A DNA stretch of 64,000 bases, taken from contig CM049313.1 of assembly GCA_026874595.1 (NCBI GenBank), forward strand, positions 30,376,008-30,440,007, given 5' to 3'. This document shows positions 8,065 through 64,000 of this stretch, in pieces. Made by a program: the position numbers and the translations under genes. Numbering within the stretch: the stretch's first letter is position 1; every line of letters starts with the position of its first letter. Source of the stretch: Sipunculus nudus (taxonomy: Eukaryota; Annelida; Sipuncula; Golfingiida; Sipunculidae). The notes beneath the pieces were generated by a model. The model had not been told where the DNA came from and ran no database searches. It saw only the letters and a program-made list of their open reading frames with translations.

Positions 8065-11000
8065 AGCTCAGCTGACTTTCAGTCATGCTGGGCTATAGCG
8101 ATGGGTCTTTGTCCGGCGTCCGTCCGTCTGTCTGTCCGGCCGGCCGTCCGTTAGCAGGGCACAAATCGTAACCATAGGGGCTAGGGCCATGAACCCTATG
8201 CAGTCTTAGAGGTCCTAAAAAGATCTCCTTGCAAACCTGAAATTAGGTCACTGCGACCTATATTCTCGAAGTTATGGGGTGTATTTGCACCCCCCAGAAA
8301 TAATTCTTTTAGCCAAAATTTTCATCCCAAACCTTCCATCTTACACATACAGCTCACCTACCAACAGGGGAAGAACCATTATTATTTTGAGGTCACAAGG
8401 TCAAAGGTCAAGGTCACAGAACCAACTTCTTTGAAAAGCCTCAGGATGCATTTTAAGCCAAACCTTTCATCTCAATTCTTTGATCTTTCACATATAGCTC
8501 ACCTACTAAGTGGGAGAGGAATCCTATAGATGTTGAGGTCACAAGGTCAAAGGTCAGGGTCACAGGATCCATTTCTTTGAAAAGGTTGTGGACACATTTC
8601 AAGCTAGACCTTTCATTCCAAACCTTTCAGCACTGATATCGCTTCTCTGCCAACAGGGGAAAAGACCTGTTGATTTTGAGGTCAAAGGTCAAGTTCACAG
8701 CACCCTCTTCTTGCGTGGAGTCATTTTAAGGCAAACTTTTCAATCTATACTTTCCATCTGTAATATATGGCTTGCCTACCAATAGGAGAAGAAGCCTATT
8801 GATGTTGGGTTCAAAAGGTCAAAGGTCAAGGTCACAATATTGTTCTAAATACTTGCGTACATATTTCAAGTGAAACTGTTCAACCCAAACCTTCAGTCTT
8901 TCACATATGCCACATCTATGCATCACTGAATTTGATTCAAACTTCATATTTAATTGATTTTGAGGTCAGCTGGTCAGGAGGTTAAAGGTTGCAGGTCTAA
9001 GTTATTCACTCATTGGTTGCCAAGTAATTACACCCGGCCAGATGTAAGTGGTAAGTAGTTACCCATCATTTAGAAAGAATCCAGTTGATATGTGGGCAAA
9101 AGGCCAAGGTCATAGGTCAGGAATGTTCACAGTAACTTATTTTGTAGACCATCTCTATTTTTCTTGTTTTCTTGTATATGTAACTATGGCACTCACAACT
9201 GGTACATCTCACTATGTGCCCATAATTGTCAGTGACACCTGTGATATAGGACTCCCTTTTGTATCAGCTCATGGAGTGATAAGGATATATCATTAGTGCA
9301 TAACAAAAACACTGTTGTCGGAATGCTTTGGCCAGGCATTAAGACTATGAGAGTTAAGTGTTAAGGTTTAGCTACTGATTTATAAAATGATGGGAACATT
9401 TTGCAGTTTATATCATGGAATCATAGCAATAAACTTAGTTTTCTAGATATCTGAATATTATTATAAAAATCATCAGATATACCAGCAAGTGTTTGTTCTG
9501 ATAATATGTGGGTCTTTACCTGGATTTAGGATGGCTTTATTTGATTACAAGACTCTTAATGATGCTTTCTGCATTTATTTTCTTTTAGGTTTTGCAGTTT
9601 ACCTACCCTGCTGACCCTATTGAATAGCAAGCTGATAATTAAAACAAATTGGACTTGCACTTTTTACATTTGCATGTTCATAAATCTGATATGAGAGCTC
9701 TCCAACCTGATCATGCCTTTTGAATTGTTTTGGACATTCATAACTGTTACATTCTTTGAAGCAATTGCTACAAGTTTAGTGTCTTATTGGAGGATGTGTG
9801 ACATCAAATGTCAGACTTGTCAGAAAACCATTATGTCTGCCAGGTAGCCATTTTAGAAATCCTTTTGCCAGGGCAGTTTCTGTGATTTTTTATGATGTTT
9901 GGTCCCTTTTAGAGGATGTTTGTTGTTCAATTTCCGACCTGTCAGAAATCCAATATGGCCACCAGGAAGCCATCTTTAAATTCCTTTTAGAACATATTAT
10001 CTCAAGAACTATTAAAGTGAATGCAGTGGGATGTATATTAATGTTATCTTGCATTGGGTCAAAGATTTCTTAATAAATATGACCATCATTTATGAAAGCT
10101 CAGTACAGTTGGCTTGTATTAAATAAAAATTAATATGGAAGCACCCGTTTCACAATAATTCTTGCATGGATTTCCTTGATCTTTTGCTATATTTTGATCT
10201 TAAATGTGGCCTGTGTGGTATTCCTTTTGAGACTGACAGGTATTGAGCAAGCTGTGGGATTAGTTCCTGATAGCTCAACAACCATACATTTTGCCTCAGA
10301 CCATCATTGTATCCCCAGACAAAGTCGGGATACTATGGTTTCACAACGGTCCTGCCGCCACCGCCGCAGAAAAACCTTGTGAGTGGGATAACTCAAAAAA
10401 TATTTCACTGATTTTTTTCAAACTTTACATTTGTATAGATATAGGTAAGGGGACGAAGCCTATTTAAAATGGGGTCATGACCTATGCTAGGAGAATGACC
10501 TTGACCATGAATAGGTCCATTATTGCTGAAAATAACACAAATTCTTAAATATCTCAAGTAAGCTTGCATGGACTGGTCTAAAAATTAAGGTGACCGAAGA
10601 TCTTGGATAGCCTTGTGATATACCGGAAACTGGTGGCGCCACCTATTATCCTTTTCTTGTTTTTACGCCTTTTAATACCCCCATAATTGCCACTTGACAG
10701 TACTGTAAGCATTATAAGTCAAAAACTAATGGACAGATTTCTTTCATATTATGCACATGTAGAGAGATGGGCTATGGGATGAGGTCTGTTTACATTTGGG
10801 TCATGACCTTTACCATGAGAGTGGCCTTGACCTTTAATGTGTCCATATTTGGTGAAAATCACACACCTCTTATGATATCTCCAGTGTTGATAGTCATATG
10901 GATTTCAAACGTGACTTATGTATGTCCCACCACTAAAGTAAGAACCCTATAGGTTCTAGGATCATGAGGTCTAAGGTCAAGGTCACTGGACTTGCATCTT

Positions 11001-12349
11001 ACAAGATACTGTGGATGCATTTTAAGCCAAACTTTCAAGGTCTTCCATCTTGAATATATAGCCCACTTCCCAATAGTGGATGATCCATATCAATTTTGGG
11101 GTCACAAGAACAAAGGTCAAGGCCACAGGAGCTATATGTCAAAAAATTAGTTTCTGGATGATAATTCCTGCTTTTATTGATGTATTGATTTCAAACTTGA
11201 TTTATATATGTCCCATTGAAAAAGCAAGACTCCAATTGATTTTGGGGTCATGAGGTCAAAGGTCAAGGTCACAGGACACATCTTTAAAAGATTGTGGATG
11301 CATTTTCAGCCAAACATTTCATCTCAGACCTTTCAGCTTGCACATATAGTTCATCTGCCAAGAGTGGAAGACCCCTATCAATTTTGAGGTCACAAGGTCA
11401 AAGGTGAAGGTCACAGGAGCCATCTGTCCAAAAATTAGTTTCTGGATGATAATTCCTGCTTTTATTGATGTATGGATTTAAAACTTGACTTGTATATGAC
11501 CCATTGGAAAAGCAAGACCCGAATTGATTTTGAGGTCATGAGATCAAAGGTCAAGGTCACAGGACACATCTTTAAAAAGATTGTGGATGCATTTTCAGCC
11601 AAACAATTCATCTCAGATCTTTCATCTTGCACAAATAGATCACCTGCCAAGAGTGGAAGACCCCTATCAATTTTGAGGTCACCAGGTCAAAGGTGAAGGT
11701 CACAGGAGCCATCATTCCAAAAATTAGTTTCTGGATGATAATGCCTGCTTTTATTGATGTATGGATTTCAAACTTGACTTGTATATGTCCCATTGGAAAA
11801 GCAAGACCCGAATTGATTTTGGGATCATGAGGTCAAAGGTCAAGGTCACAGGACACATCTTCAAAAAGATGTGGATGCATTTTCAGCCAAACATTTCATC
11901 TCAGACATTTCATCTTGCACATACAGTTCCCCTGCCAATAGAGGAAGATGCCTGTCAATTGTGAGGTCACAAGGTCAAAGGTGAAAGTCACAGGAGCCAT
12001 CTGTCCAAAAATCAGTTCCTGAGATGATAATGCAAGCTTGGATTAATATATGGATTTCAAACCTGACTTATATATGGCCCATCAATAAATCTCTATTGAT
12101 TTATATATAAAAGTGGATGATCAATAAGCAAGATCCCAATTGATTTTTGGGTCATGAGGTCAAAGGTCAAGGTCACAGGACCAACATCTTCAAAAAGATT
12201 GTGGATTGATAGATGGAAGAAACAATAATTGCTTGCCAAGTGTCAGTATATGCTGCTTAAAATGGGGGCCTATTCTTAAAAGGGGGGTGGGCCCTACTAT
12301 GTCTGGGGATACTCTGGCACCTGCGGTGCCAAGAAATATCTAGTTCACT
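8065..12349 (+). mobile_element. Pearl/Helentron-like repeat B1: hairpin head, CCGTCC microsatellite, long degenerate core array
   Basis: It begins after a T run with AGCTCAGCTGACTTTCAGTC, then a (GTCC/GTCCG)n tract (8118-8150). A long array of about 140-300 bp degenerate cores follows. Each core carries words such as AAGCCAAACC, TTTCATCT, CACATATAGCTCACC, GGAAGA(A/C)CC, TATTGATTTTGAGGTCA and CACAGGA. Regions 9300-10300 and around 10320-10400 (CCGCCGCCACCGCCGC-like) are less regular and may be separate insertions. The right end near 12300-12349 (GGGATACTCTGGCACC) is not a clean terminus. It is non-coding: open frames here are repeats of the cores. Confidence 0.65.
8398..12169 (+). promoter_or_regulatory. 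Array of AGGTCA direct repeats (DR1-type) in the B1 cores
   Basis: Perfect AGGTCAAAGGTCA (two AGGTCA half-sites spaced by one base) occurs at 8398, 8544, 8679, 8816, 11253, 11830 and 12157. Near-perfect versions and additional AAGGTCA half-sites lie around 10968, 11395, 11540, 11690 and 11970. DR1 is the known recognition form of RXR, HNF4 and COUP-TF nuclear receptors. Whether any are bound here is unknown; the sequence is part of the repeat consensus. Confidence 0.35.
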
Positions 12350-14430: not shown

Positions 14431-17337
14431 AGCTCAGCTAAACTGAAAGTCATCCATCTGTCTGTCTGTCTGTCTGTCCGTTAACCAGGCACAAATCATA
14501 ACTGCTGGACCTAGAATCTTGTAACTTGGGATTCTGAGAGGTCCACAAAAAATCTTCATTGAAACCAGAAATTAGGTCTCTGTTACCCTTATCCTTCGAG
14601 CTATGGGGCCCCGAATTACCCCCCAGAATTGTCAAAAATTTCATACAAAAACTTCAATATCTCATTAACTACATCACTGATGGTCATGATTTTTGGCATA
14701 CATATTGATCATGAGATGTTTCATCAGTTTCTGCAGACTGGTGATGCCACCTGTATTTTTCGATTTCTTACGAATTGTTTTCTCTATTTTTGAGACCTTT
14801 AAAAATGTGAACATCTGTTAACAGGGCACAAATCATAAAGACTGGACCTAGAATCTTCATTCTTGACACAGTGAGAGACCTATGAAAAGTGTCCATGGAA
14901 AATAAGGTCTCTGTTACCCATATCTTTGAGCTGTGGGGCTCCCAATTACCTTTGATAAAAACAAACTGCAACATCTCAATAACTTCAACACTGATGGTCA
15001 TGATATTTGGCATACATATTGATCAAGAGGTGTTCCATTTATTTCCAGCAGACTGGTGGTGCCACCTGTATTTTTCAAATTTTCACAATTTTTTTTCTCT
15101 CTTTTTTTTGAGACCTTTAAGGATGTAGTTATCTGTCAACAGGGTACAAATCGTAACGACTGGACCTAGAATCTTCCTTCTTGACACACAGGGAGACCAA
15201 TGAAAAGTCTCCATGGAAACCTGAAATTAGGTCTTTGTTACCCATATCCTTTTAGCTATGGCACTCCAAAGTACAGCTCAGAATAAAAGAAAATTTGATA
15301 CAGAATCTGAAGTATATGAACAACTAATGCCGAGATCACCATAATTGTTTGCATGGATATTGATCATAGAGTGTTTCATCAGTTTCTGCAGACTGGTGAT
15401 ACCACCTGTATATGTTCGTTTTTTTTTCGGAATTTTTCTCTTTTTTGAGACCTTTAAAGATATGAACATCTGTTAACAGGGCACAAATCATAACAACTGG
15501 ACCAAGAATCTTCATTCTTGACACACAGGGAGACCCATGAAAAGTCTCCATGGGAACCTGAAATTAGGTCTCTGTTACCCATATCCTTGAAGCTGTATGG
15601 CTCCAACATACCCCCAAGAATAATGAAAAATTTGATACAAAAACTACAGTATCTGAACAACTAATGCAGAGATCAGCATGATTCTTTGCATGGATATTGA
15701 CCATTAGGTGTTTTTATTAGTTTCTGCAGACTGGTATTTTTGTATCCGCCAAAACAAAGTTTTGTGGATACTATGTTTTTGACGGGGTTCCGCCGCCGCC
15801 GCCCATTTGTTTCTGGAGAACTCCTCTGAGACTACTGGACTGACTTTTCCAAAACTTACACCAATTATCGGGTCACGTGAACTGGTGCCTAACCAATTTG
15901 CGTTGACCTTTGACCTTTCCTCTCTGCCCAATGTCCATTTGTGCATCTTTTTCCACACATAAACCCTCATATCTAGGGAACCGTTTGACTGATCAGGAAA
16001 ATTTTTTATACAAATGTAGATCTTGGATAGTTTCATAAGATGCACAAAAAATGGTGGTGCCACCTGCAACCATGTTTGCAGTATCCATCTGTTCATCTGC
16101 CTTTGGTTAAAATCACTCATCTCTCTGCAGTGAATTGACTAATTCACCTGAAATTAGGCATGCGTATACATCCTGGATAGCTTTCTTGATTTTTGACAGG
16201 TGGCGCCACCTACATTCATGTTCACTCTGCAGACATCCAAGCACATATCTCGGGAACCGTTTGACAAATCAGGACAAAATTTTTCATGTGTATCTCACAT
16301 AGCTCTTTCTCATACGCAAAACGGGTGGCACCACCTGCAACCTTTTTCGCACAGCGTCTGTCTGTTTGTCTGCCATTGGATCATATCACTCATATCTCGG
16401 CAGTGGTTTGACATGTCTGCCTAATATTTTGCAGTTTTATACATCCCGGACAGTTTTCATGATTTTATGACAGGTGGCGCCACATACATTCTAATTATGC
16501 TGCAGACATCCAAGCTCATATCTTGGGAACCGTTTGACTGATTGGGCCAAAATTTTGCATGTGTATTCATCTAACATAGGTCTTTATCATACACAAAACT
16601 GGAGGGGCCACCTGCAACCATTTTTGCACAGCGTCTTGTTTGTCTGCTGTGGACTAAAATCACTCGTATCTCTGTAGTTGTTTGACATAACTGCCTAAAT
16701 TTTTGCAGGATTATACATCCTGGACAGCTTTCTTGATTTTATGACAGGTGGCGCCACCTACATTCTAGTGTACGCTGCGAAAAACCAAGCTCATATCTCG
16801 GGAACCGTTTGACCGATTGGGCCAAAATTGTGCATGTGTTCAGATCTCGAATAGTTCTTTATCATACTCAAAACTGGAGGGGCCACCTGCAACCATTTTT
16901 GCACAGCATCTGTCTGTTTGTCTGCCGTGGGCTAAAATCACTCATATACATGTAGTGGTTTGACTTTTCTGCCTAAAATTTAGCATATGTATACAACTTG
17001 GACAGCTTTCTGGATTTGTGGTAGTTGGCACAACCCACATACACATTTAGGCTGCAGACATCCATGCTAATATGCAACACACCTCACTCTATTTCCCCTT
17101 GCCACTCAATCCATGCCTCACTCTGATTTTGGCAGATACACGTAGTCACTCGTTTTTAAAGTTTACACATTTTTTCTCTATTTTTGAGATATATAAATAC
17201 AGACACAATCTTGGCCTGTTGGTTAATCTGTTTGATGCTTCAGTTGAATGGGTATACACTACCATTCTGATGATAAAATTTCCTTTTGCAAATCTCTTCC
17301 CAGTCAGCTGAGCATCATGACCGATGGGTCACTTGTT
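14431..17337 (+). mobile_element. Pearl/Helentron-like repeat B2, interrupted by a D element
   Basis: The head AGCTCAGCTAAACTGAAAGTC follows seven T residues and leads into (TCTG)n. Four degenerate cores of about 300 bp follow, each with ACAGGGCACAAATC(A/G)TAAC, GGACCTAGAATCTTC, GAAATTAGGTCTCTGTTACCC and TTTCATCAGTTTCTGCAGACTGGTG. At 15741 the last core breaks off and resumes at 17155 (TTTACACATTTTTTCTCT). The tail CAGCTGAGCATCATGACCGATGG(...)CACTTGTT ends at 17337. The body is non-coding. Confidence 0.7.
15742..17154 (+). mobile_element. D-family element inserted in B2
   Basis: It starts GTATCCGCCAAAACAAAG and ends CTCTGATTTTGGCAGATA followed by CACGTAGTCACTCGTT, so both termini carry an inverted GTATCCGCC-type word. 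A GCCGCCGCCGCCC tract lies near the 5' end. About four 270-300 bp cores follow with GGTGGCGCCACCT, GCAACC(A/T)TTTTTGCACAGCGTCTG, AAATCACTC(A/G)TATCTC and CGGGAACCGTTTGAC. The sequence on either side is continuous B2 core, which defines both ends. A near-complete inverted relative is at 40865-42299. Confidence 0.75.
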
Positions 17338-22149: not shown

Positions 22150-25100
22150 TATATGTCGAAGGAAGAATGAGAATCTGGGAAGATCCGGAATCCTCCCAGA
22201 AAAAATCAGAATTCTGATTTTTCTTGGGAAAAATGAGAATCCAGAGGTGGTATGAAGGGATTCCCATTCTTCCCGGGAAGAATGAGAATTCTCATTCTTC
22301 CTGGGACAAATGAGAATTCCAGTCTGTCCCGGGAAAATTGAGAATTCTCATTTTTCCTGGTAGAGATTTGAATTCAGTTTTGAAATTCAAACCTGGGAAA
22401 AATGTGAATTCTCATTCTTCCCGGGAAGAATGGGAATTATCGATGCCAACTTAACACTTTTAATTTTTTAGCTCAGCTGACTATAAGTCAACTGAGCTAT
22501 AGTCGTGGTCCATTGTCCGTCGTCCGTCCGTCCGTAGATGTGGCACGTTTTGAAACCGTAAGACCTAGGAATCCAAAATTCGGCATAATGTTAGATGTCC
22601 CCAAGATCTCCTACCAAGCCGAAAACTGGGTCTTTTCGACTTCGTTCCTATGAGAAATTAAGGAAAAACCTCAATTTTTTATTAAAAACTTATTTTCACA
22701 CTTCAGGACTGCCTAATATCAAAACCACTCATCTGTTTTTCCTCATATTTACCATAAATATTCCTCTTTATAGTTCCTATGTACATTCAAGAAAATATGT
22801 CTGTATTATATAATTTAAAAAAAGTTATGGACCCAAACATAATGCATTTTGTAAAAAATCAGGAAAGATATTTGATCACTTAACACAAAACATGTTAAAG
22901 CTATGGACCTTTTTTCCAGTAATATAACTTTAATTAATCAAAATTAAATTGTATACCCAAAATTAGATGAAAATCTTTTAAATCTTTAAAATATTAATAA
23001 AAATAAAAAGTTGGTACCTTAAATTTTGCCCAAATTTGACCATGGCACGTTTTTTCCCTGTAAGTACTGTGGATTTAATTTTCAGAGCATGTTTTTGTTA
23101 CCTTTTCAACTGTTAACACCAAAAATTTGAAACCAGTTGATCAAAAACTGTAGATTTTATTCAAGTTTTCAAGCACCATGTAACATATTGTATACATCAA
23201 GCTAGTGTTATGCAGTTTGCAAGAGCTCAGCTCCCCAGCTTCAGCTCTTAGTTCCTTAAATTCGGCATACAGCTAGATGTCTCCAAAATCCCCTACCATG
23301 CCAAGAATTTGGTCACTAGGACTTAATACCTTCAAGATATTAATGAAAAACCTCATTTTTCCATTAAAAACCCATTGTTACACTTCAAGACTGCCTAATA
23401 TCAAAACCACTGATCTGACTTTAATCATAAATAATATACATATTTTTCATTCTCTATGCACATGCCAGAATGATGTCAGTATTGCGTAATTGTTTTAAGT
23501 TATGAGCCCAAACATAATGCACTTTGTAAAAAAATCAAGAAATATATTTACTCGCTTGACAAGGGCATTGCTGAAGCTAGAGATTTTTTTGTCAGGGATG
23601 TAACATTATTTAATCAAGATTCAATTGAATACCTAAAATTAGTTCTGAATTTTTCAAATTTTATAAGTTATTAGTATAAATATAAAATTAGTACCTTAAA
23701 TTTTGCCAAACTGTGACCATGGCACGTTTGTTTCCTGTGAGCACTGTTGATATAATTTTCATATCATGCACACATAAGGATTTCAGCTTTTTAGTTTAGA
23801 AAGCTGAAAGAAATTGGCCAAAAATTGTAGCTTTTATGAGACCCTGTCAGACTTTGGCTCTCTCCAGCCCCTCTTGAGTCACCTGTATGTTGACCTTGTT
23901 GACCTTTCATCAAATTATGCACGCTTGAGGCAAGAATCCAGGCAGCTTATGGCCAGCCACAGTTGATCCAGGTGTCCAACCCAACTCATCTAGTAGTTTT
24001 ATCCAACAACATAACAATAAACAATAAATTAATAAATTTTTATTGGTGTTTAATAACAAATTAAAGAAAAATAGAAAAGGAATTTGTTAATTTATAATAA
24101 CAGGAAATTAACGTACAGTTACTGATGATATAAGAATCTTGTATCGATGGGTAGAATGTCACATATTCCAAACATCACCATGCAGTCACCTATGGCATTT
24201 TTCAGTTCAATTTTAATAATAAAGAAGTAAATTATATGAAGGAAATTAATGATAGACAAAGATGCAGTTGATAATATTAATCTAGATTCCTACTGTGTCT
24301 AGTGTGTACATTGATGTGAAATGAGTCCAAAATGAATTTTATACAGTTATTTTTTAATATAAATAAAAGCCATAAAACCAGGTACTTATGGTCATTATTT
24401 AAATGTGTGAATTTTGTATATTCTGGATTCTCAACATCATTGTTTGGTGAAAACTGAATAAATACCAGACATGGTGTGAATACTTTGTAATTGTATTTAA
24501 ATACAAATATGATTATGTATTCCATTATAAAATTTCTTGCATAAAGAATGAGAATTCAGGTAAAAATGAAAGTATAGGAATACTCGTGCAAATACTTTCA
24601 AAATGTATTCATGAATGCATTCATGAATATATTCTTTAATATTATTTTAATAATCATATCAGTTATATTTCATTTTAAAAAATCATATGATTCTCTTATT
24701 ATTTTTAATAAAAATTATATTTGGGACAATATTTGTAAATTTTTAAAATAAATAGTTAAACTCTTATATTATATGTTCTGCTTATAAGTTATATGGCCAA
24801 GTCAAAATCTGTGTGACAATAGTACTCCATTTGTTAATAAAAGAAATGAAATCAATCCTCTTCCCTGTCTCCAAAGGTACTATCAAAATCATACATAAGC
24901 TAAACAACAACAACTCATAATACAGCTTATATTTATTACCACACAAAACCAGTATGTATCCATTTCTAAATAATATTTTTTTATCATATATAACAGCTGA
25001 GCGTCGTGACCCATAGGTCCCTTGTTTTATCATATATTACAGCTGAGTGTCGTGACCCATAGGTCCCTTGTTTCATACTTATTTCTCTTTTTCAGAAAGA

Positions 25101-26300: not shown

Positions 26301-26304
26301 GACT

Positions 26305-26564: not shown

Positions 26565-26657
26565 TGACTTGATGTACAGGAAGAACTGATCACTTTATTT
26601 CACTTTCTGCCAAGGCAGAGGAATAATGATTTCAAGTTTATATGAAAACCTATTTTT

Positions 26658-31289: not shown

Positions 31290-31372
31290 CATAGGACAGA
31301 CAGGCAGGCAGACGGATGGGCAATGGCCCACGAGTAAAGCTTAGTTGACTTGTAGTCAGCTGAGCTAAAAAT
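31290..31372 (-). mobile_element. Head of a pearl-like element, minus orientation
   Basis: Read on the minus strand: TTTTTAGCTCAGCTGACTAC, AAGTC, then GCCCATCCGTCTGCCTGCCTG, the A/B-type head with microsatellite. The body expected on its lower-coordinate side is not recognisable, so this is a truncated copy inside an intron of the minus-strand gene. Confidence 0.65.
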
Positions 31373-45665: not shown

Positions 45666-45667
45666 TT

Positions 45668-48690: not shown

Positions 48691-49964
48691 CCTACCGTAA
48701 AAACTTGCATATAAGTTGATCTTGCATATAAGACAAGTGTGATTTTTAGGGTGAAAAATATTTTTACCATCTCAGTCTATGAGAAATCTTACAGGTGAGT
48801 ACAGGCCTCGCTGTCCAAGGTTGTACACAAATGCTTAAAATATCTGTCAGAATGACATTCATTTGATCTTTGCAGATGAACAGAATAAAGGGACAAATAT
48901 TAATAAATCTACGATTTATCAAGAGTAAATATTTAATAAGATATAAATATTCATCTAATTTTTGATCGGTGGAAAAGCAAATCATGTACCTGAATCCAAA
49001 TGGCGGCCATGTCTGATTAAGGTTTGTCATGGTACCTTAAGTTGAATTACAATTTACATTAAAAAAATAAACAAATTTATATATGGCCTTGTGATTTTTA
49101 GCGAACCTGTGAGCTTATCGATGGTGTGGCGTCGTCCGTTGTCTGTACGTTAACCCATACCATCTTGAAAACGGCAAAAATTCTATGCAAAAAATTAGTT
49201 ATCTAAAAAACTATCTGACTTTGCTTATATTTTGGCTAACTGCATTTTCTTAGATTTTATAGGGAAAAAGCTAAAAAAGCTCTAAAAATCTTCTTCTCCG
49301 AAACTGTTCAGCCAAATTGTCCAATATTTCACAAAAATGATTCTTGGAACAATCTCAAGTTTGTTCGAATTTTTTAAGTTCTGTGATTTTTGGGCGAGTT
49401 ACAGGAAGTTGAACTTAGTCATCTGTCCAAAAAAACCATACTAAAATTAGAAACGGCTGGAGCTATCATCACCAAATTTTATCATGCCAATGTTGGTCAC
49501 ATGAGTCATATCTGAAATGGAGATATTAGTGGCGCCACCTGCATCGGCCTTTTTTGTACGGGGTTCATAAGTGCCCGTATCATACTGAGGGCTACAAAAA
49601 AATTCTTCTCTGAATTCATATTGCCAAATTGTTTAATATTGCACAGAAATGTTCCTAGGGTAGTGCTTTCTGAAGTTTGTTCAAATGGTCTCTGTTCAGT
49701 GACTTTTGGCCAAGTTATGGGAAGCTGAATTTAGTCATATGCCATAACAGCCCGTTTTAGCTCAGTGGCTACAAAGATCTTCTTCTAAAAAAAAACCACT
49801 GAGCCAAATTCTTAAATCTCACACATTAATTATCCTTAGATGTTGATATTTCAAGTTTGTTCAAATGGTTTTGGTTCAGTGATTTTTGGCTGAGTTATGG
49901 GAAGCTTAACATAGCCATTTTACTGTATTTTCCCATATGAGTTATAAACCTGCAAAACGTTTTT

Positions 49965-51820
49965 AGCTCAGCTGACTATAAGTCATCTGAGCTATAGTCG
50001 TGGTCCTTTGTCCGTCGTCCGTCCGTCTGTTCGTCTGTTCGTCCGTCCGTCCTTCCGTAGATGTAAGACCTAGGAATCCAAAATTCAGCATAATGTTAGA
50101 TGTCCCCAAGATCTCCTACCAAGCCGAAAACTGGGTCTTTGCGACTTCGTTCCTTTGAGAAATTAAGGAAAAACCTCAATTTTTTTATTAAAATCCTATT
50201 TTTACACTTCAGGACTGTCTAATATCAAAACCACTCATCTGTTTTTCCTCATATTAACCATAAATATTCCTCTATATAGTTCCTATGTACATGCCAGAAA
50301 TTAAGTCTGTAAAGTATAAATTCTTTAAGTTATGGGCCCAAACATAATGGCCTTTGTAAAAAATCAGGAAAAATAATAACTCACTAACATGAAAAATTTG
50401 GAAACTAGAGTCTATTTTCTCAAGTATATAACTATGTTTAATTAAGATTCAATTGTTTACCCAAAATTAAATCTGAATTTTGTAAATTTTTTTAAGTTAC
50501 TAGCATAAAAAAAAATCAGTACTTTAAATTTTGCCCAACTTTGACCATGGCACTTTTTTTCCTGTAAGCACCATTGATTTAATTTTCACAGCATGTAAAC
50601 ATAAATATTTAGTTTGTCTAAATCTGAAATTTGAAAATAAAAGCTTGAAAATTAAGCTAGTTATTGATTTTTTTTTCTGTAGTCACTTGCTTTGATTACA
50701 GATGCAGGGTCCCACTCCAGGTCACTGGAAGTCAGCTATGCCAGGGTTTCTGATTTGTTACAGTCACTGGGGGAGATCCCCTGCTGTGACAGGTGTACAG
50801 TTATTCTCATATCAACACCCCCCCCCCCCCCCCCCCCCGCAAACCCACAAAGTGTTATGCAGTAATTGTTATTGTTTTCACTGTATCTACTTAATTGTAA
50901 TGCTGTTTCCACTCCGATATGCAAAAACTTTCCTTGAAAAAATAATCCAGAAGATGCAATGTTGTGTAATGTAGCAATTTTAAAGAAATCAATTTTCTTT
51001 TAAATGATTTTAACAAAAAAATGAACCCATCAGTATGCTTAAATTATTATAAAATATGAAGCACATTATGGATAAATAAAGACACAATTAAAAATTGTGA
51101 AATCTAAATCAAGTATTATTTTTAGATATTTATTGTTTTGCAGATTTAAAAGATATATTTTTGTGGTAAAAAATAAATAAACATTTGTATGCATGATGTG
51201 GTGTTATCTGACAAGATTGAGATTTAGATGATGCAATTGAGAATTATGTATCAACTTTTATATTCAGATATATATGTTAAATTGGAAATGTATAGAAATA
51301 TAAACTTAAATTAGAAAATAATTGATGTGATAAAAAAATCAGGATTTAATACAAACATTTGTTCATTATTTTCCTGCCTCAGCAGAATTTGAGATCAGGC
51401 TTTGTTTGCCCTGTTTTATGTTGTTAATTTGCTATATATCAACAATACATTTCATAAAAAAAAATACATATATATTTAATCATATATATTATACAAAAAA
51501 ATAGATTCAATTGAACAAATGTGTAAACTACTGAAATGTCAACAGTTAATCCAAAAACCAACTAATGATCATGGTAATAGTACAGATCATTTGTTCACAA
51601 ACTGCTCACATGCTTTAGTTTCAACATTAGGAAACACATGGTCAGGTCACAAAATATTTTTTGCAACAATTTCTTGCTCATCAATACAAACCAATCATAT
51701 AAACCAACCATGGCCTTTATTACCTCTTCCTCTTACACTTTATCTCCATTAGATATTATTTTAGATTTTTACCTTCAAGGTTAACGTCAGCTGAGCACAG
51801 TGACCCATAGGTCCCTTGTT
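49965..51820 (+). mobile_element. Family A relative, copy A4 (1.86 kb), nested in C1
   Basis: Standard head hairpin and (CCGT)n, but it lacks GATGTGGCACG at the core start and has a different second half. This includes GATGCAGGGTCCCACTCCAG, a 21-base C run (50818-50838), a GCATGATGTGGTGTTAT segment shared with A5, an endonuclease remnant, and the tail CAGCTGAGCACAGTGACCCA, TAGGTCCCTTGTT. It is followed by T with no target duplication. The empty site is seen in C4 at about 60883-60888. Confidence 0.85.
51519..51752 (+). pseudogene. C-terminal fragment of an endonuclease/exonuclease/phosphatase (EEP) domain
   Basis: The frame reads LKCQQLIQKPTNDHGN, then STDHLFTNCSHALVSTLGNT, then WSGHKIFFATI. 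This fits the end of AP-endonuclease-like domains of LINEs and Helentrons, which have a (L)QLI-x-x-PT segment, DH(I/L)(Y/F)TN and a final SDH motif with the catalytic Asp-His. Here SDH has become SGH. Everything N-terminal is missing. It lies less than 80 bases before the element's 3' tail, where a Helentron's C-terminal endonuclease would end. A second copy with SDH intact is at 56017-56117. Confidence 0.55.
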
Positions 51821-52302
51821 TGAATTATGCCACTGAGGCCAATTAGTTTAATATTTTATAAGAATAATCCCCTAAATAATTCTTATAATAATTGTCTTTT
51901 ATGGTTCCAAAGAATGAATTTTGGCTGAATTATAAAGATTGAATTGAGTCATTTTACCATATATGTTAGCTGTGTGAAGCAGATACATCTAGCCTGGCAC
52001 CAGTTTATCAGCATCCGTTACATCATGCCCCTAGACATTTAGATTTCAGATAATCTATGATTAATATTGACAAGAATGTTTTTTAAAAGCTTTAAAAAAA
52101 TGTAGATTTATGATTTTAGATATTCCTCATGCCAGGCAGTGTTTACAATCACAGGTATACAGCTCTCTAAGGGTGTATAAAGACGGCTGTACATGGATTA
52201 TATATAATTGGTATCCATACTCAACTTAATTCAAGATTTTGCCATCAGTGAGATGTATCGGTATTATAATTTTGCAATCAATATGCATCTGTAGTAATTT
52301 TT

Positions 52303-54088
52303 AGCGAACCTGTGAGCTAATGCGATGGTGTGGCGACGTATGTTGTCCATTGTCTGTATGTTAATCCATAAAAACCTCATAATTTTAGCCTCTTTCAGCT
52401 TAAAATGTTTATGTTGAAACTGCTAAGTTGAATCGTTCAATTTTTCAAAAATATTTATCTTAGGACATGGTTCTTTTAACCACATCAGAATAGATTGAGT
52501 TCAAATGTTAATTTTTGGTTGAGTCATGAAAAGCTTAAGTTGGTCTTATGGCCATTATTATGTCTATTTAAAAACTAAGGACTGCAATAGTGTTCTTCTA
52601 CAAAATTATTGTTTCAATTATAACCTCTGTAAAATTGCACAAAGATTATTCATAGGTGGCCTTTGTTCTAGTTTACTTGAATGATTTTTGGCAGAATTAT
52701 TCGACCTTTAACAATGAAAGGACTGCATCTTTTATTATTCTTGATATTTTGATAAAAAGTTTATGAATATATCAGCTTGAAAAACAAAGCATTTTAGCCG
52801 AGGTCTTTCAGAATTTTTAAACAGATTGTGTCTATAACTTTAAATAGGTTGAGAAACTGCCATCTGTTTCAGATTTGGCAACAGATCAAGAGTTCATTCA
52901 GTGCAGCCATATATAGGTCAAGAGTTTAATCAGTGCAGCCAAGCACAAGGCATGTAATCACCTCATGTGTGACATGTGAACACCTCATGGGCACCATGTG
53001 ATCACCTCATAGGTAACATGTGATCACCTCATCAGTATCATGTGATCACCTCATGTGTGTCATGCCCCTCAGGGTTGCATGTGGAGCCAATCTTTGAGCT
53101 TATGCAATGGTGTGTCTACTGTTTCAAATTTTGCAACAGGCCAAAGGTCAGTCTGGATCTATTTATAGCTTTGGCAGACTGCTAACTGTATCAGATTAGG
53201 CAACAGGTCAAGAGTTCACTCAGTGCAGCCAGGTATAGGTCAGGAGTTCACTCAGTGCTGTAGCTGCATTCTATTTATAACATTGGCAGACTGCCCACTG
53301 CATCCAATTTGGCTACAATGTTCAGCCTGGATTTATTTATAGCTTTGGCAGACTGCCAGCTGTGTCAGAATATGCAACAGGTCAAGAGTTCACTCAGTGC
53401 AGCCAGGTACAGGTCAAATATTCACTCAATCTAGCCAGGTGCAGGTCATGAGTTCACTCAGTGCAGTAGCCTGAACCAGCAATTTGTCACAGTTCACTCG
53501 GGGCAACGGCCTTTCTCACATAAGCTTGGTCAGCCCCATGCATCAGACTCAAGGTAAGTTTGATGTATTTACCTGATATTTTGACCTGTCTATATGTCTT
53601 TGATGGCTTTCTCGTTCACAAGACAGGTGTCGCCACCTACAAAGACTTTTGCACAGTGTATATGCCTGCTTATTTCTACAGAGGAATTTGATATATCAGC
53701 CTGAAATTGGGCCAGTTTATACATATTGAAAAGCTTTGTCGTAAACAAGACTGGTGGTGCCACCTACAATAATTTTTGCACAGTATGTGTCCCTGCTTAT
53801 TTCTCAGGAGGGGTTTGATATATCAGTCTCAAATTGGGCATATGTATATATCTCTGATAGCTTCGTTGTATACTACTACTAGACTGGTGTTGGCAACTAC
53901 AATCATTTTTGTGTTGTGTGCACCCATGCCAGAATTTTAGCTGTGATATTTGTTAAATCGTTTCTTATTCAAACTGTTTAGTACTTGCATTGTTCATATG
54001 TACATTAAAAGTAATGGTCCAGTTTTGAAGCATTATACCTTTTGTATTTCCCAATGCACAGGTTCCCATTAGGCCTGTAGGCCTTGTT
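52303..54088 (+). mobile_element. Family C element, copy C2
   Basis: The head AGCGAACCTGTGAGCTAATG after five T residues leads to GTTGTCCATTGTCTGTATG. Diverged cores, a 22 bp tandem array, and repeated GGTCAAGAGTTCACTCAGTG and CAGACTGCC words follow. Two to three cores with GGTG(T/G)(C/T)GCCACCTAC and TTTGATATATCAG(C/T)CT resemble D cores. The tail GCACAGGTTCCCATTAGGCC, TGTAGGCCTTGTT ends at 54088 with T next. The terminal AGGCCTGTAGGCCT is a palindrome. Confidence 0.75.
52951..53060 (+). repeat. 22 bp tandem repeat, five copies
   Basis: CATGTGATCACCTCAT plus six variable bases, repeated exactly every 22 bases from 52951 to 53060. The constant 16 bases and changing 6 bases give a mosaic appearance. 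Local to C2. Confidence 0.9.
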
Positions 54089-54734: not shown

Positions 54735-55273
54735 TTGTCCCCACAATAATTTTTATAATAATTGTCTTTAATGGTTCCACATGAATGATTTTTGGCTGAA
54801 TTATGGAGGTTGAATTCAGTCATTTTACCATTTATGTTAGCTGTGTGAAGCAGTTACATCTAGCCTGGCACCAGTTTATCAGCACCTGTTACATCATGCC
54901 ACTAGATTTCAGGTTAAATAGCTTGGCAGACTTTCAACTATTTCAGATTTGGCAACAGGTCAAAGGATAGCCTGGATCAATTTATAGCTTTGGCAGATTC
55001 GCAACTGTATTAGATAGGCAACAGGTCAAAAGTTCACTCAGTCTAGCCAGGTGCAGGTCAAGCATTCACTCAGTGCAGTAGCTTGAGGGATTAATTTGTC
55101 ACAGCTCACTCGAGGGGATATCACCATTAAATTAGGCATATGTATACATCCTTGATACCTTTGTCATATACAAGACATGTAGGCTTACTTGAAAAGTAAT
55201 TGCCCAGCAGTGAAGCATTATATCTGATGTATAAACCACTGCACAGGTTCGCATTAGGCCTGTAGGCCTTGTT
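54735..55273 (+). mobile_element. Family C 3' fragment, copy C3
   Basis: It shares CACAATAATTTTTATAATAATTG, GCTGTGTGAAGCAGTTACATC and GGCACCAGTTTATCAGCA with 51860-52030. It then shows the GGTCAA/CACTCAGT words and the tail GCACAGGTTCGCATTAGGCC, TGTAGGCCTTGTT (end 55273). No head. Confidence 0.65.
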
Positions 55274-57001: not shown

Positions 57002-57101
57002 ACCTCTTCTTCTCAGACTTTAATCTCCATTTGATATTATTTTCAATTTTTACCTTCAAGGTCAACTTCGGCTGAGTACAGTGACCCATGAGTCCCTTGT
57101 T

Positions 57102-57434: not shown

Positions 57435-57472
57435 AAGTTCAGCTGACCACCACAACCCATGGATCTCTTGTT
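57435..57472 (+). mobile_element. Isolated A-type 3' tail immediately before the GEN1 start
   Basis: GTTCAGCTGACCACCACAAC, CCATGGATCTCTTGTT has the form CAGCTGA(n)CCCATGG(A)TC(n)CTTGTT of the family-A tails, in decayed state. Twenty bases separate it from the GEN1 ATG. Its pyrimidine-rich end, with the following CAATACAG (57473-57480), forms a plausible splice acceptor for the GEN1 5' region. Confidence 0.55.
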
Positions 57473-57492
57473 CAATACAGGCTGTGGTGAAA

Positions 57493-57650: not shown

Positions 57651-57685
57651 GTTTGTCTTTAATCACTCCTGGCAAATGCATTTTT

Positions 57686-58759
57686 AGCTAAGCTGGCTGA
57701 AAGTCAACTGAGATATAGGAATGGCACTTTGTCTGTCGTCTGTCCAGTCATCCTGGCCGTCCCAGCCGTCCGTCAGCAGGGCAAAAATCATAACTGCTAA
57801 CACTAGAAACTTGTAACTGAATACCCAGGTAGGTTAATAAAAAATCTCCATTAAACCTGAAATAAGGTCACTGCAAACTAAATCCTCTGAGCTATTTGTC
57901 TTGTAAGTTCGCCCAGAATAATTAAAAATTTTATACAAAACCTCCTGTATCTTGATAATTAATGCATGGATCGCCATGAATCTTGCCATGAATATTGACC
58001 ATTAAAAGTTTTGTAAGTTCGCAAAAAGTGGTGGGGCCAACTGTAATTTTTAGCTCGGCTGACTTTAAGTCATCTGAGCTATAGCAATCACTCTTTTGCT
58101 ATCCGGCCGTCCTGCCGTCTGTCAATTAACAGGGCACAAATCGTAACCACTGGACCTGGAATCTTCTTATTCTACATCCAAAAAGGTTTATGAAAAATCT
58201 CCTTGGAAACCTGGAATTAGGTCTCTGTTACCCATATTCTTCAAGCTATGGGGCTCTGAAGTACCCCCCAGAATAATGAAAAATTTGATACAAAAGCTCA
58301 AGTATCTGAACAACTAATGGATTGATCACCATGATTCTTTGCATGAATATTGATCATGGAGTGTTTCATCAGTTTCTGCAGACTGGTGGCGCCACCTGTT
58401 TTTTTTTATTTTTAATGATTTTTTTTCTCTATTTTTGAGACCTCAAAAGATTGTCATCTGTTAACAGGGCACAAATCGTAACCGCTGGACCTGGAATCTT
58501 TTCACTTTACATCCAGAGAGGTCCATGAAAAGTCTTCTTGGAAACCTTGAATTAGGTCTCTATTACCCACATTCTTCAAGCTATGGGGCTGGTAAGTACC
58601 CCTCAGATTTATTAAAAAGCTAATACAAAAGCTCCAGTATCTGACTAACTAATGCTCTGAGGCTATCATATTTTGCATGCATATTGATCATGGAGTGTTT
58701 CATCAGTTTCTACAGACTGGTGGAACCACCTGTATTTTTTCAAATTTTTACACATTTTT
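57686..58759 (+). mobile_element. B-type elements in GEN1 intron 1 (two heads)
   Basis: Two heads, AGCTAAGCTGGCTGAAAGTC (57686) and AGCTCGGCTGACTTTAAGTC (58052), each follow T residues and lead into GTC/CCGTCCGTC tracts. They are followed by one and two B2-type cores (ACAGGGCACAAATCGTAAC, GAATTAGGTCTCTGTTACCC, TTTCATCAGTTTCTGCAGAC). Neither has its own tail before the next head, so they are tandem or nested truncated copies. They lie just 36 bases into the intron. Confidence 0.7.
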
Positions 58760-59955
58760 AGCTCGGCTGACTGTAAGTCATCTGAGCTATAGTCGTGGTC
58801 CATTGTCTGTCCATCCATCCGTCTATCCATCCGTTAGAATGGCACGTTTTGAAACAGTTGGATCTACAAATCCAAAATTAGGCATACCATTGGATGTCCC
58901 AAAAATCTCCTACCATACCGAAAATTAAGTCAATATAACTTTGTTCCTTTGAGATTTTAAGGAAAAAGCTCAAATTTCCATTAAAAACCTATTATCACAC
59001 TTCAGGACTGCCTAATATCAAAACCACTTATCTGTTTTTCTTTATATTTACCAGAAGTATTCTCCTATATAGTTTCTATATACGTGCCAGAAATTAAATC
59101 TATTAAGTGTAATTTCTGTAAGTTATGGGCCCGAACATTATGGACTTTGTAAAATATCAGGGAAAATATTTACTCACATATCATAAAATTATTGAAGCTA
59201 GAGCATTTTTTTCAAGTATATAACTTTGTTTAATTAAGATTCAATTGTATACCCAAAATTAGATATGTATTTTGAAAATTTTATAAGTTATAAGCATAAA
59301 CATAAAATTAGTACCTTAAATTTTACCCAACTTTGACCATGGCACGTTTTTTCCTGTGAGTACTGTTGATTTAATTTTCACAGCATGTAAACATAAGTAT
59401 TTAATTTGTTTAAATCTGTAATTTGAAAATAAAAGGTAGAAAATTAGGCTAGTTATTGAATTTTTTCTTGAGGCTCTATAGTAGTCACTTGCTTTGTTCC
59501 AGATGCAGGTAGGCCACTCCAGGTCACTGGAAGTCAGCTATGCCAGGGTTCCTGATTTGTTACAGTCACTGGGGGAGATCCCCTGCTGTGACATTGTTCT
59601 CATATCACAACCCCCCCACCCCCCCCCCCCCCACCCCGATGAATATATACATATTCATTTGTATGCATGATGTGGTGTTATATGAAAAGATTGAAATTTA
59701 TGATGATGCAATGTAGTTGGGAATGTATAGAAATTAAACTTAAAATAAAAAAATGAGGATCTAATACAAACATGTGTTTATTATTTTCCAGCCTCAGCAG
59801 AATTGGAGATCAGGCTTTGTTTGCCCTGAATGTATATTGAAAAGTGTTGTTAATCCCACCATCTCCCCCCCCCCCCCCCCCCCCCGATCCCCCTCATTGA
59901 TCCTTTGCACCTGTGCACTGGGACATAAGTTTTTATTGCAAATGTGTACAGTTTT
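58760..59955 (+). mobile_element. Family A relative, copy A5 (truncated)
   Basis: The head AGCTCGGCTGACTGTAAGTC follows five T residues. One core ends at TTTGACCATGGCACGTTTTTTC. It then follows A4: GGCCACTCCAGGTCACTGG, GGGGGAGATCCCCTGCTGTG, C runs (59609-59635, 59867-59885), GCATGATGTGGTGTTAT and CAGATCAGGC-type words. It stops where C4 begins, without a tail. Confidence 0.7.
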
Positions 59956-59957
59956 TT

Positions 59958-61392
59958 AGCGAACCTGTGAGCTTATGCGATGGTGCGGCATCGTACGTCG
60001 TTTGTCGTGCGTTGTGCGTCTTGCGTCGTGCGTCATCTGTACGTTAACCATAGCTATCTCAAAAATGGCAGGAGCAAGCATCACCAAAGTTTTTGCAAAT
60101 AATCAGTCTTCAGTCAAATCAGTCAAAAACTATATCGGATTTTGTTTATTTTTTTTTTTTACTGCATTTTCTTAGATTTTATAGGGAAAAAGCTAAAAAA
60201 GCTTTAATGATCTTCTTCTCCGAAACTGTCCAGCCAAATTGTTCTATATTTCACAGAAATGATCCCTGGAACAATCTCTCTCAAGTTTGTTGAATGGTTC
60301 CAGTTGGGAGATTTTTGGCCAAGTTACAGGAGGTTGAACTTTGTCATCTGTCTAAAAAAGCATAGTAAAATTTAAATCTCAGAAACGGCTGGAGCTATCA
60401 TCACCAAATTTTATGCCAATGTTGGTCACATAGGTCGTATATGAAATTGAGGCATTGGTTGCGCCACCTGCATCAGCTTTTTTGTACAGGGTCATCAGTG
60501 CCTGTATCACACTGAGGGCTACAAAAAACTTCTTCTCTGAAACCATATGGCCAAAATATTTAATATTGCACAGAAATGATCCTAGGGTAGTGCTTTCTGA
60601 AGTTTGTTCAAATGGTCTCTGTTCAGTGACTTTTGGCTAAGTTATGGGAAGCTGAATTTAGTCATATGCCATAACAGCCCATTTTAGTTCAGTGGCTACA
60701 AAGATCTTCTTCTCTAAAACCACTGGGCCAATTTCTTAAATCTCACACATTAATTTTCCTGAGATATTGATTATTCAAGTTTGTTCAAGTGGTTTTGGTT
60801 CAGTGCTTTTTTGCTGAGTTACGGGAAGCTGAACTTAGCCAGTTTGCTGTATCTTCCTATATGAGTTATAAACCTGCGAAATGTTTTTCGACTGTTGCCA
60901 CTGAAGCCAGTATGGTAAATATTTTACAAGAATAATCCCTACAATAATTCTTAAAATAATTGTCATTAATGGTTCCACATGAGTGATTTTTGGCTGAATT
61001 ATGGAGATTAAATTGAGTCATTTTACCATATATGTTAGCTGTGTGATTCTGTTACATCTAGCCTGCCACCAGTTTATCAAATCTATTACATCATGCCACT
61101 AGACATTTAGATTTCAGGTTATCTTTGGTTAATATAGACAAGAAAGTTTTTTTAAAAGCTTTTAAAAAAATAGATTTATGATTTAAGTTATTCATCATAC
61201 CAGACAATGGGATATTCATGTGTATTCAGCTCTCTGTGGCTATATAAATACAACTGTACATGGATTATAAATTATTGGTATCCCTACTTAACTTAATTCA
61301 AGAATTTGCCATCAATGAGACATATCTGTATTTTAATTTTGCACTCAGTATGCATCTGTAATAATTTTACATGTATATCTGATTTCTTTTTT
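59958..61392 (+). mobile_element. Family C element, copy C4 (uninterrupted form)
   Basis: The head AGCGAACCTGTGAGCTTATG follows six T residues and leads into GTCGTTTGTCGTGCGTTGTG. Cores parallel C1. At 60880-60900 it reads GTTTTTCGACTGTTGCCACTG, where C1 carries A4, and it then continues collinear with 51840-52290. It is cut by A6 at 61393 without a recognisable tail. Confidence 0.7.
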
Positions 61393-64000
61393 AGCTCAGC
61401 TGACTATAAGTCATCTGAGCTATAGTCGTGGTCCATTGTCCGTCGTCTGTCCGTCTGTCCATCCGTCCGTCTGAAGATGTGGCCCGTTTTGAAACCGTAA
61501 GACCTAGGAATCCAAAATTCGGCATAATGTTAGATGTCCCCAAGATCTCCTACCAAGCTGAAAACTGGGTCTTTGCGACTTCGTTCCTTTTAGAAATTAA
61601 GGAAAAACCTCAATTTTTTATTAAAAACCTATTTTTACACTTCAGGACTGCCTGATATCAAAACCACTCATCTGTTTTTCCTCATATTTACCATAATTAT
61701 TCCTCTATATAGTTCCTATGTACATGCCAGAAATTATGTCTGTATTATGTAAATTTAAAAAGTTATGGGCCCAAACATAATGCATTGCGTAAAAAATCAG
61801 GAAAGATATTTGATCACTTAACACAAAATATGTTAAAGCTATAAACTTTTTTCCAGTAATATAACTTTAATTCATCAAAATTAAATTGTATACCCAAAAT
61901 TAGATCAAAATCTTTTAATTTTTTTAAAATATTAACAAAAATAAAAAATTGGTACCTTAAATTTTGCCCAACTTTGACCATGGCACGTTTTTTTCCTGTA
62001 AGTACTGTGGATTTAATTTTCACAGCATGTTTTTTTAGCATTTTGTCTGTAAACACCAAAAATTTGAAACCAGTTGATCAAAAACTAGATTTTATTCAAG
62101 TTTTCAAGCACCATGTAACATATTGTTTACATCAAGCTAGTGTCATGCAGTTTGCAAGTGCTCAGCTCCCCAGCTTCAGCTCTCAGTTCCTAAAATTTGG
62201 CATGCAATTAGATGTCTCAAAAATCCCCTACCAAGCCAAGAATGTGGACACTAGGACTTAATACCTTCGAGATATTAATGAAAAACTTCATTTTTCCATT
62301 AAAAACCCATTGTTACACTTCAAGACTGCCTAATATCAAAACCACTGATCTGACTTTAATCATATATAATATACATATTTTTCTATACATTCTCTATGCA
62401 CATGCCAGAAATGATGTCCGTATTGCGTAATTGTTTTAAGTTATGGGCCCAAACATAATGCACTTTGTAAAAAATCAAGAAATATATTTACTCCCTTAAC
62501 AAGGGGATTGCTGAAGCTAGAGATTTTTTGTCAGGGATGTAACATTATTTAATCAAGATTCAATAGAATACCCAAAATTAGTTCTGAATTTTTCAAATTT
62601 TATAAGTTATTAGTATAAATATAAAATTAGTACCTTAAATTTTGCCCAACTTTGACCATGGCATGTTTGTTTCCTGTGAGCACTGTTGTTATAATTTTCA
62701 TATCATGCACACATAAAGATTTCAGCTTTTTAGTTTAAAAAGCTGAAAGAAATTGGCCAAAAATTGTAGCTTTTATTAATATTTTTATGAGACCATGTCA
62801 GACCTTGGCTCTCTGTAGCACCTCTTGAGTCACATGTATGTTGACCTTGTTGAACTTTCAGCAAATTATGCATGCTTGAGGCGAGGCATAAACTGGGGCT
62901 CCAGGCAGCTTATTATATAATGGCCAGCCACAGTTGATCCAAGTGTCCAACCCAACTCATCTATTAACCAACAACATAACAATAAACAATTAATTAATAA
63001 ATTTTTATTGGTTGTTAATAACAAATTAAAGAAAAATAGAAAAGGAATTTGTTAGTAGATAATAACAGAAAATTAACTTGCAGTTACTGATGATATAAGA
63101 ATCTTGTATCGATGGATAGAATGTCACGTATTCCAAATAACACCATGCAGTCACCTATGGTATTTTTCAGTTCAATTTTAATGATAAAAAAGTAAATCAT
63201 ATTATTCATTACTGATCATTAGGGATCATATGAAGGAAATTAATGATAGACAAAGATGCAGTTGATAATATTATTATCTAGATTCCTACTGTGTCTGTAG
63301 TTAGTACATTGATGTGAAATTAGTCCAAAATGAATATATCACATTTTTTTTAATATAAATAAAAGCCATAAAACCAGGTACTTATGATCATTATTTAAAT
63401 GTGTGAATTTTGTATATTCTGGATTCTCAACATCATTGTTTGGTGAAAACTGAATAAATACCAGACATGGTGCGAATACTTTGCAATTGTATTTAAACAC
63501 GAATATGAATATGTACTCCATTATAAAATTTCTTTCATAAGAATGGGAATTCAGGTAAAATGAAAGTATATGAATACCAGTGCAAATACTTTCAAAATGT
63601 ATTAATGAATGCATTCATGAATATATTCTTTAATATTATTTTAATAATCATTTCAGTTATATTTTATTTGCAAAAATCATACTATTCTCTTATTATTTTT
63701 AATAAAAATTATATTTGGGACAATATTTGTAATTTTTTTAATAAATAGTTAAACTCTTATATTATATGTTCTGCTTATAAGTTATATGGCCAAGTCAAAA
63801 TCTGTGTGACAATTGCACTCCATTTGTTAATAAAATAAATGAAATTAATCCTCTTCTCTGTCTCCAAAGGTACTATCAAAATCATACATAAGCTAAACAA
63901 CAACAACTCATAATACAGCTTATTTTTATTACCACATAAAACCAGCATGTGCCTCATTTCTAAATCATATTTTTTTATCATATATTACAGCTGAGCGCCG
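61393..64000 (+). mobile_element. Family A element, copy A6, runs off the window
   Basis: Hairpin head after six T residues, (CCGT/CTGT) tract, both long cores, and the start of the tail (CAGCTGAGCGCCG at the last bases). Only about 30 bases of the 3' end are missing. Well conserved with A1-A3. Confidence 0.88.

Follow-up and report, generated by a model that had tools for sequence, protein, structure and literature searches.

Ends and bodies of the repeat families

A stretch of 64,000 nucleotides from the Sipunculus nudus genome (the window; assembly GCA_026874595.1, contig CM049313.1, positions 30,376,008 to 30,440,007) was analysed for the repeat families A to F, their relation to the rolling-circle elements known as Helentrons and the strands on which they lie. 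Comparison of the tails ending at 17337, 25072, 29258, 37137 and 51820 established an A/B tail module, which consists of CAGCTGAG(C/T), a short spacer, a GACC...GGTC palindrome, CTTG and TT. Counted as exact matches only, the 33-nt A form of this tail occurs 7,274 times in the genome and the form without the last TT 7,423 times, i.e., TT stands directly 3' of the A tail in 7,274 of 7,423 copies. B-type tail variants amount to 5,276 copies, the C tail (CACAGGTTC...GGCCTTG|TT, ending at 54088 and 55273 in the window) to 4,538 and the D end to 4,466, and the reversed control patterns gave no match for any of them. Within the A/B palindrome 238 of 287 cells are paired over 41 distinct tails (of 72 matches), with slid versions reaching 39-115, and one pair switches from A-T (26 tails) to G-C (12 tails); the tails are related, so these paired changes may represent few events.

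A preliminary description of this DNA had assigned one common 3' end to families A, B, C, D and F. For A, B, F and C a common 3' end was confirmed. D and E end in a hairpin followed by CTAG|TT, and the CTTGTT formerly taken for the D end lies in the hairpin loop, beyond which the element runs on to CTAG|TT; the D copy at 17154 lacks this end. The F end had been placed at 57001, which is internal; the real tail with its A4-like end occupies 57068-57101 and closes 100 nt past that position. CTAG is the final tetramer in D, E and part of the A/B-type tails, CTTG in most A/B tails and in C tails. At least three kinds of end are present, namely A/B/F, C, and D/E with CTAG, and the A/B/F class divides further into tail variants matching different gene-carrying lineages. 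In all classes the 5' arm recurs in inverted form and is followed by a short palindrome, CT(T/A)G and TT.

The A head consists of a run of T5-T6 and AGCTCAGCTGACTATAAGTCATCTGAGCT or close variants and folds into a strong hairpin, and the left arm of the A/B head recurs in inverted form before the tail palindrome. The T5-T6 run precedes 17 of the 29 A/B head matches in the window and the fetched loci, in agreement with the position after T runs given in the preliminary description. Among the 12 others, a single T precedes 11, which seem to represent the hairpin as it reads on the opposite strand. In the remaining one, L036, a second A/B-type head starts immediately after a tail, with TT only in between. 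The C head (T5-AGCGAACCTGTGAGC) has the T5-T6 run in two of four matches and yielded no strong hairpin in a single-sequence fold; the D head (TGTATCCGCC) and the E head (TGTATCCCC) both fold into hairpins. The E element at 10308-12343 with its CTAG end and the heads at 57681, 58047, 58755 and 52298 were added to the inventory in the course of this work.

Bodies were compared over the 960 nt up to the tail for 20 A-type tails, chosen from 100 listed matches, and four tails of the window. Two classes with 13 and 8 members resulted, together with three singletons (L071, window F and window B2), the first of which stands alone because another element is inserted there. Different bodies therefore do share one tail, as had been proposed. 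The four A copies formerly grouped share the tail module, and the copy at 51820, a member of the class of eight, has a 3' body unlike that of A1. The likeness between F and B1 cores reported earlier was also seen in the repeat families of the window. C and D cores look alike by inspection.

Gene-carrying partners and insertion sites

We assign families A, B, F and C to the non-autonomous Helentrons (HINE-type, with Helitron2-like ends) with a probability of about 0.88; A, B and F are linked to gene-carrying partners by both ends. D and E are built on the same pattern (inverted arm, hairpin, CTAG|TT) and also have TT targets. The Helitron_like_N domain has at least 143 matches in the genome, from which six loci with long frames were taken. 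The reading frames of the partners exceed 2,200 codons and comprise Helitron_like_N, PIF1 and endonuclease domains, the endonuclease match being below the Pfam cut-off in L005 and above it in L001. In L005 a B-type tail follows about 1 kb 3' of the intact long frame. The endonuclease end itself has 133 matches in the genome, and the 3' flanks of 40 of these were fetched as two samples of 20. An A/B tail in gene orientation lies downstream in 13 of 20 (at most 9 mismatches) and 16 of 20 (at most 12 mismatches), that is in 29 of 40, compared with 0 of 20 and 1 of 20 (a weak match) on the opposite strand. Four divergent loci with 40-50% identity at the endonuclease (L036, L038, L040 and L043) have tails closest to the A family.

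Both ends are seen in three copies, L016, L017 and L018, which are about 95-99% alike and whose homology starts at T5-T6 with the A/B head and stops at the tail; over the compared part, L005 and one of these copies are 96-98% alike. Thus a search for Rep-helicase elements with the same ends, which the preliminary description had suggested, returned Rep-helicase-endonuclease elements with the same tails, three of them also with the same head, and the Helentron/HINE reading given there is supported. For C, a Helentron lineage that has both its cores and its tail is likely, judged from L041, in which a C-type core and a C tail follow the gene, and from L042, in which a C-type core does. No gene-carrying partner with the ends of D or E was present among the fetched loci, and D copies occur within Helentrons as insertions.

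Several observations weigh against this assignment. In 11 of the 40 sampled 3' flanks (7 of 20 and 4 of 20) the stretch taken contains no A/B tail, although one of them, L041, has the C tail. L016, L017 and L018 have no long intact frame, their open frames at the endonuclease measuring 852, 365 and 364 codons, and the head of L005, whose frame is intact, was not reached within 3.2 kb upstream. The C tail of L041 could belong to a neighbouring insertion, as that of L026 seems to do. L006 is about 90% alike to L005 in coding DNA, yet their flanks are unrelated, and the Helentron lineage of L001-L004 shows none of these ends within the fetched DNA. At 6 of 23 right junctions that match another copy the target has no TT, and the inverted arm lies nearer the 3' end than in mite HINEs, for which the relevant part of PMC4067079 states 38-60 bp. 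As a separate observation, the frames of L001-L004 are 82-93% alike in coding DNA and their flanks mostly unrelated, with the exception of L002 and L003, which have long downstream repeats.

For two D insertions the complete empty site is preserved in a near-identical sister copy, with one TT in the empty site and TT at each filled junction. The unoccupied site corresponding to A4 lies in a second C-type copy within the window, whose left side is about 88% alike, which confirms the nesting described previously. No target duplication longer than the T's was found at the examined junctions, as had been stated before; the number of flanking T's varies, and T's belonging to the element are indistinguishable from those of the target. 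The suggested preference for TT was also recovered: the target starts with TT at 17 of the 23 matched right junctions (a manual count in which some matches are weak), and the nucleotides following the tail are T at +1 in 66 of 67 and at +2 in 59 of 67 A/B tail matches from the window and the fetched loci, and both T in all seven D tail matches. L071 harbors an element of yet another family, with a hairpin head of the GCCCCCGCC type and a CTAG end, which by empty-site comparison is inserted in a T run near an A tail. The right junction of L026 resembles a Helentron inserted within a C-type repeat.

A1 and L016 each carry two tails 45-46 nt apart (24979-25072 in A1). In L016 a B-type tail is followed 45 nt on by an A-type tail, and the 5' flank is not A body. 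Simple nesting was rejected as an explanation, as no A body was found in the 2 kb upstream of A1 or in the 3.7 kb that precede the L016 element's head. For this reason the doubled tails probably moved as one unit, for example after a missed first stop. In L016 the unit that moved seems to have extended from a B-type head as far as an A-type tail, and its order of tails hints at cross-use of ends. Missed termination, composite transposition and self-insertion are among the events described for Helitrons in the relevant parts of PMC4067079 and PMC5148889. The features of the window are listed in Table 1.

Table 1. Elements, heads and tails located in the window (positions counted from its first nucleotide).
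Feature	Position	Strand	Remark
B1 head: T5 and hairpin AGCTCAGCTGAC..., then GTCC-type microsatellite	8060-8103	+	
E element: hairpin head TGTATCCCC, tandem cores, CTAG|TT end after 3' hairpin	10308-12343	+	Left junction empty, L037 vs L039
D copy with TGTATCCGCC hairpin head, 3' truncated, without CTAG end	15741-17154	+	
B2 tail, differing by 1 mismatch from that of Helentron L005	17304-17337	+	
A1: T run and head through first tail	22465-25026	+	
A1 second tail unit, 46 nt	25027-25072	+	No A body found 2 kb upstream of A1
A2 element	26653-29258	+	
A/B-type head	31328-31371	-	
A/B-type tail, 5 mismatches	33898-33931	-	
A3 element	34483-37137	+	
D copy, 3' hairpin GTAGTCA-CTTGT-TGACTAC, then CCTTATTCTAG|TT	40848-42300	-	
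A4 element: A head, 3' body unlike A1, inside C-type repeat	49960-51820	+	Empty copy at about 60888
C1 copy: head T5-AGCGAACCTGTG, tail CACAGGTTC...CCTTG|TT	52298-54088	+	
C2 tail	55242-55273	+	
True F tail, A4-like end	57068-57101	+	
Further A/B-type tail, 6 mismatches	57439-57472	+	
Three further A/B-type heads (57681, 58047, 58755)	57681-58793	+	Core arrays resemble 5' region of gene-carrying elements
C head of the C-type repeat holding the empty counterpart of the A4 site	59953-59983	+	
A5 element; tail ends about 20 nt past window end	61388-64000	+	

Strand domains and alternative explanations

Within the window, Helentron-like sequence amounts to 25,452 bp on the plus and 2,781 bp on the minus strand. 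For the statistics on strand domains the first 14-18 Mb of assembly sequence C1 and about 0.45 Mb around the window on C8 were used. On C1, the first 100 listed matches each of the A, B, C and D tails were evaluated; as composite elements can share a strand, pairs closer than 2 kb were dropped, and same-strand neighbours closer than 3 kb were merged for segmentation. The listed A matches form 25 strand runs compared with a shuffled mean of 50.7 and the C matches 26 compared with 50.5, and none of 20,000 shuffles was as low. Pairs with different tails lie on the same strand in 67 of 71 cases at 2-10 kb, 163 of 193 at 10-30 kb, 384 of 529 at 30-100 kb and 445 of 695 at 100-200 kb, and agreement decays towards chance past about 0.2-0.4 Mb (684 of 1,222 at 200-400 kb, 1,368 of 2,541 at 400-800 kb and 2,184 of 4,527 at 0.8-1.6 Mb). 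The nearest Helentron of another tail type at a distance of 2-100 kb shares the strand in 230 of 289 cases, and the local rule is common to all four tail types tested. A two-state segmentation, fitted to the same data, accommodated 318 of 345 elements in 37 segments, one of which extends over 981 kb and has 45 of its 46 elements in the same orientation.

The flanks of the window on C8 were sampled as ten 5-kb stretches. The two at 30.18 and 30.22 Mb contain 5,599 bp of Helentron-like sequence, all of it minus, and the five at 30.46-30.62 Mb contain 7,941 bp plus and none minus. Between the minus and the plus domain, in the three stretches at 30.26-30.345 Mb (L089-L091), no Helentron-like sequence was found; two of these are richer in GC and have long open frames.

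Retroelement motifs served as a control, which is small (30 places) since the LTR (long terminal repeat)-type motif has only eight places in the tested part of C1; judged from reversed patterns, about 7% of the LINE (long interspersed nuclear element)-type and about 23% of the LTR-type matches are perhaps chance. Of the motifs within 100 kb of a listed Helentron, 15 of 30 lie on the strand of the closest such element (LINE-type 11 of 23, LTR-type 4 of 7), and LINE-type pairs share a strand in 3 of 12 cases at 10-30 kb and 37 of 65 at 30-100 kb. A LINE 3'-end pattern gave seven copies only in the genome, and a search of the fetched DNA for another abundant non-Helentron repeat yielded none useful as a comparison. 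A tRNA pattern had 196 matches, and nearly all of the 100 listed ones are clustered on C8 and C9. One of these regions, C9:40.605-40.762 Mb, is a dense array of tRNA-like boxes with a spacing of about 1.67 kb, in which the matches listed are all plus.

With due caution we incline to the view that Helentrons insert into single-stranded DNA at replication forks with fixed polarity and that their strands form a fossil map of replication direction. In such a model Rep would nick at the 5' end, one strand would be displaced and copied until the 3' palindrome halts copying, and the displaced strand would be joined into single-stranded T-rich DNA; a missed first tail would result in double-tail units. 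The strand domains suggest that the single-stranded target is exposed at replication forks, the direction of which would set the insertion strand. Of other elements, Helraiser uses only one donor strand of the transposon (according to the relevant part of PMC5876387), and the orientation of IS200/IS605 insertions recapitulates replication direction in bacteria, as stated in the pertinent section of PMC5371812.

Three findings speak against the fork model. The sites of Rep/endonuclease matches, considered genome-wide, do not agree, with 6 of 10 pairs on the same strand at 15-50 kb, 2 of 5 at 50-100 kb and 4 of 11 at 100-200 kb (12 of 26), and the claim of strand domains is limited accordingly. 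For this count same-strand matches within 15 kb were merged into 182 sites, two copies of the C7 cluster were then dropped and adjacent partial matches were excluded; many of the sites are clustered and of several lineages. Furthermore, the strand rule is kept less consistently by B and D tails than by those of A and C (A-B pairs 20 of 29 at 10-30 kb, D-D pairs 23 of 39 at 30-100 kb). Finally, an asymmetry between origin and termination was not seen at the strand switches on C1, where the median gaps are 64 and 76 kb for the two kinds of switch (26 kb overall) and discordant elements nearby number 5 of 132 and 11 of 126.

Mobilisation of every family, D and E among them, by the enzyme of a single Helentron is close to the unifying replication machinery suggested in the preliminary description and seems unlikely, though not negligibly so. 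The part of that suggestion which persists is the plan of inverted arm, palindrome and CT(T/A)G|TT shared by all end classes, together with two observations that favour cross-use of ends, namely the strand rule followed by the four tested tail types and the doubled tails, such as the B-type and A-type pair of L016. The part which does not is a single terminus with a single partner: the gene-carrying lineages matched by the tail variants differ, a separate lineage is likely for C (L041, L042), and the heads and 3' hairpins of D and E are unrelated in sequence to those of A, B and C, with no partner found for either family.

The remaining alternatives concern the strand domains. An origin in transcription, i.e., insertion relative to gene direction, for instance into strands displaced at transcribed genes, appears improbable: some stretches beside the switch on C8 look coding on the plus strand, with open frames of up to 416 codons (L091), but agreement reaches 100-200 kb and the 981-kb segment on C1 is longer than expected of genes. 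Decidedly less probable is a surplus of T runs on one strand or nesting in oriented T runs. Elements do nest in T runs of other elements, but nesting alone should not extend over 30-200 kb, and the window has similar numbers of T5+ and A5+ runs (277 and 258; outside masked sequence 106 and 103), so target supply is not the explanation for its unequal strands. Segmental duplication, or local hopping in a fixed orientation within each family, has very little to commend it, although some copies are clustered duplicates, such as the C7 cluster with its near-equal scores. Agreement extends to families with unrelated ends (C-D pairs 29 of 31 at 10-30 kb; the 163 of 193 for all different-tail pairs at this distance may include duplicated segments), and at 2-50 kb, where 0.85 was observed (349 of 411), 500 circular shifts of the strands per family averaged 0.50 and did not exceed 0.63. 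That the common 3' letters arose by chance or convergence can practically be dismissed: the short motif is weak, CCTTGTT having 16 plus-strand occurrences in the window, some of them at unrelated places, and this explanation holds for the former F end at 57001 and the former placement of the D end, but it is refuted for A/B by the 33-nt module with 7,274 exact copies versus 0 reversed, at which homology between gene-carrying copies ends.

Strong strand order of rolling-circle elements, with neighbouring insertions mostly in one orientation over tens to hundreds of kilobases, is shown in two regions of the Sipunculus nudus genome. If it follows replication forks, as we are inclined to assume, it would show how these elements choose their targets, and the copies would document in which direction the germline DNA is replicated. 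Tens of thousands of insertions could then be read by their strands along animal chromosomes, and replication domains could be deduced from an assembly alone. No paper on strand domains of Helitrons was found among the publications listed, which is no proof of novelty.

Comparison with known transposon systems

The 5' TC and the A|T insertion of canonical Helitrons (Helitron1) were not observed, the heads reading T5-AGC or TGTATCC and the targets T|T. The 3' end of canonical Helitrons is CTRR behind a hairpin; in Sipunculus nudus D, E and some of the A/B-type tails close with CTAG, most A/B and the C tails with CTTG. Asymmetric terminal inverted repeats and hairpins at both ends, as in Helitron2, occur in A/B, D and E, but the partners carry an endonuclease domain, unlike the Rep-helicase of Helitron2. 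Elements of the IS200/IS605 group have hairpin ends and an HUH-type enzyme. They are bacterial and unrelated to those described here, and the fork model would make the Helentrons their eukaryotic counterpart with respect to orientation. The likeness is a mechanistic analogy and lies in single-strand insertion with an orientation following the direction of replication, as outlined for IS608 in the respective section of PMC5371812. With Helitron2/FoHeli, as far as portrayed in the sections of PMC5148889 concerned, the elements share asymmetric terminal inverted repeats, hairpins, targets of the TTTT|T type and composites formed by self-insertion; the endonuclease of the partners distinguishes them from the fungal elements, in which none was found there.

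A/B/F have partners with Rep, PIF1 helicase and AP endonuclease, both ends being present in the three copies without an intact frame and the tail alone in L005; they also have a subterminal inverted repeat with a 3' palindrome, and they insert at TT without target duplication. Helentrons and HINEs/DINE-1, in the account of them in PMC4067079, likewise combine a Rep-helicase and endonuclease in the partner with subterminal inverted repeats, a 3' palindrome, tandem cores, a microsatellite, T-rich targets and lack of target duplication. A difference from that account is that the palindrome directly abuts CT(T/A)G in Sipunculus nudus, and strand domains are not mentioned in the portion of PMC4067079 devoted to these elements.

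The Pacific oyster Cg_HINE (PMC7492417), likened here by description and not by sequence, shares satellite-like central repeats between conserved flanks, TT insertion and modular combinations; its integration in both orientations is reported in the corresponding part of that work, where domains are unmentioned. The authors of that study could not relate Cg_HINE to autonomous Helentrons, as stated in the passages on its origin, whereas partners with matching ends were found in Sipunculus nudus. Gene-carrying partners are hereby supplied for satellite-carrying HINEs, a kind of element which the oyster work, so far as these passages go, had left without one.

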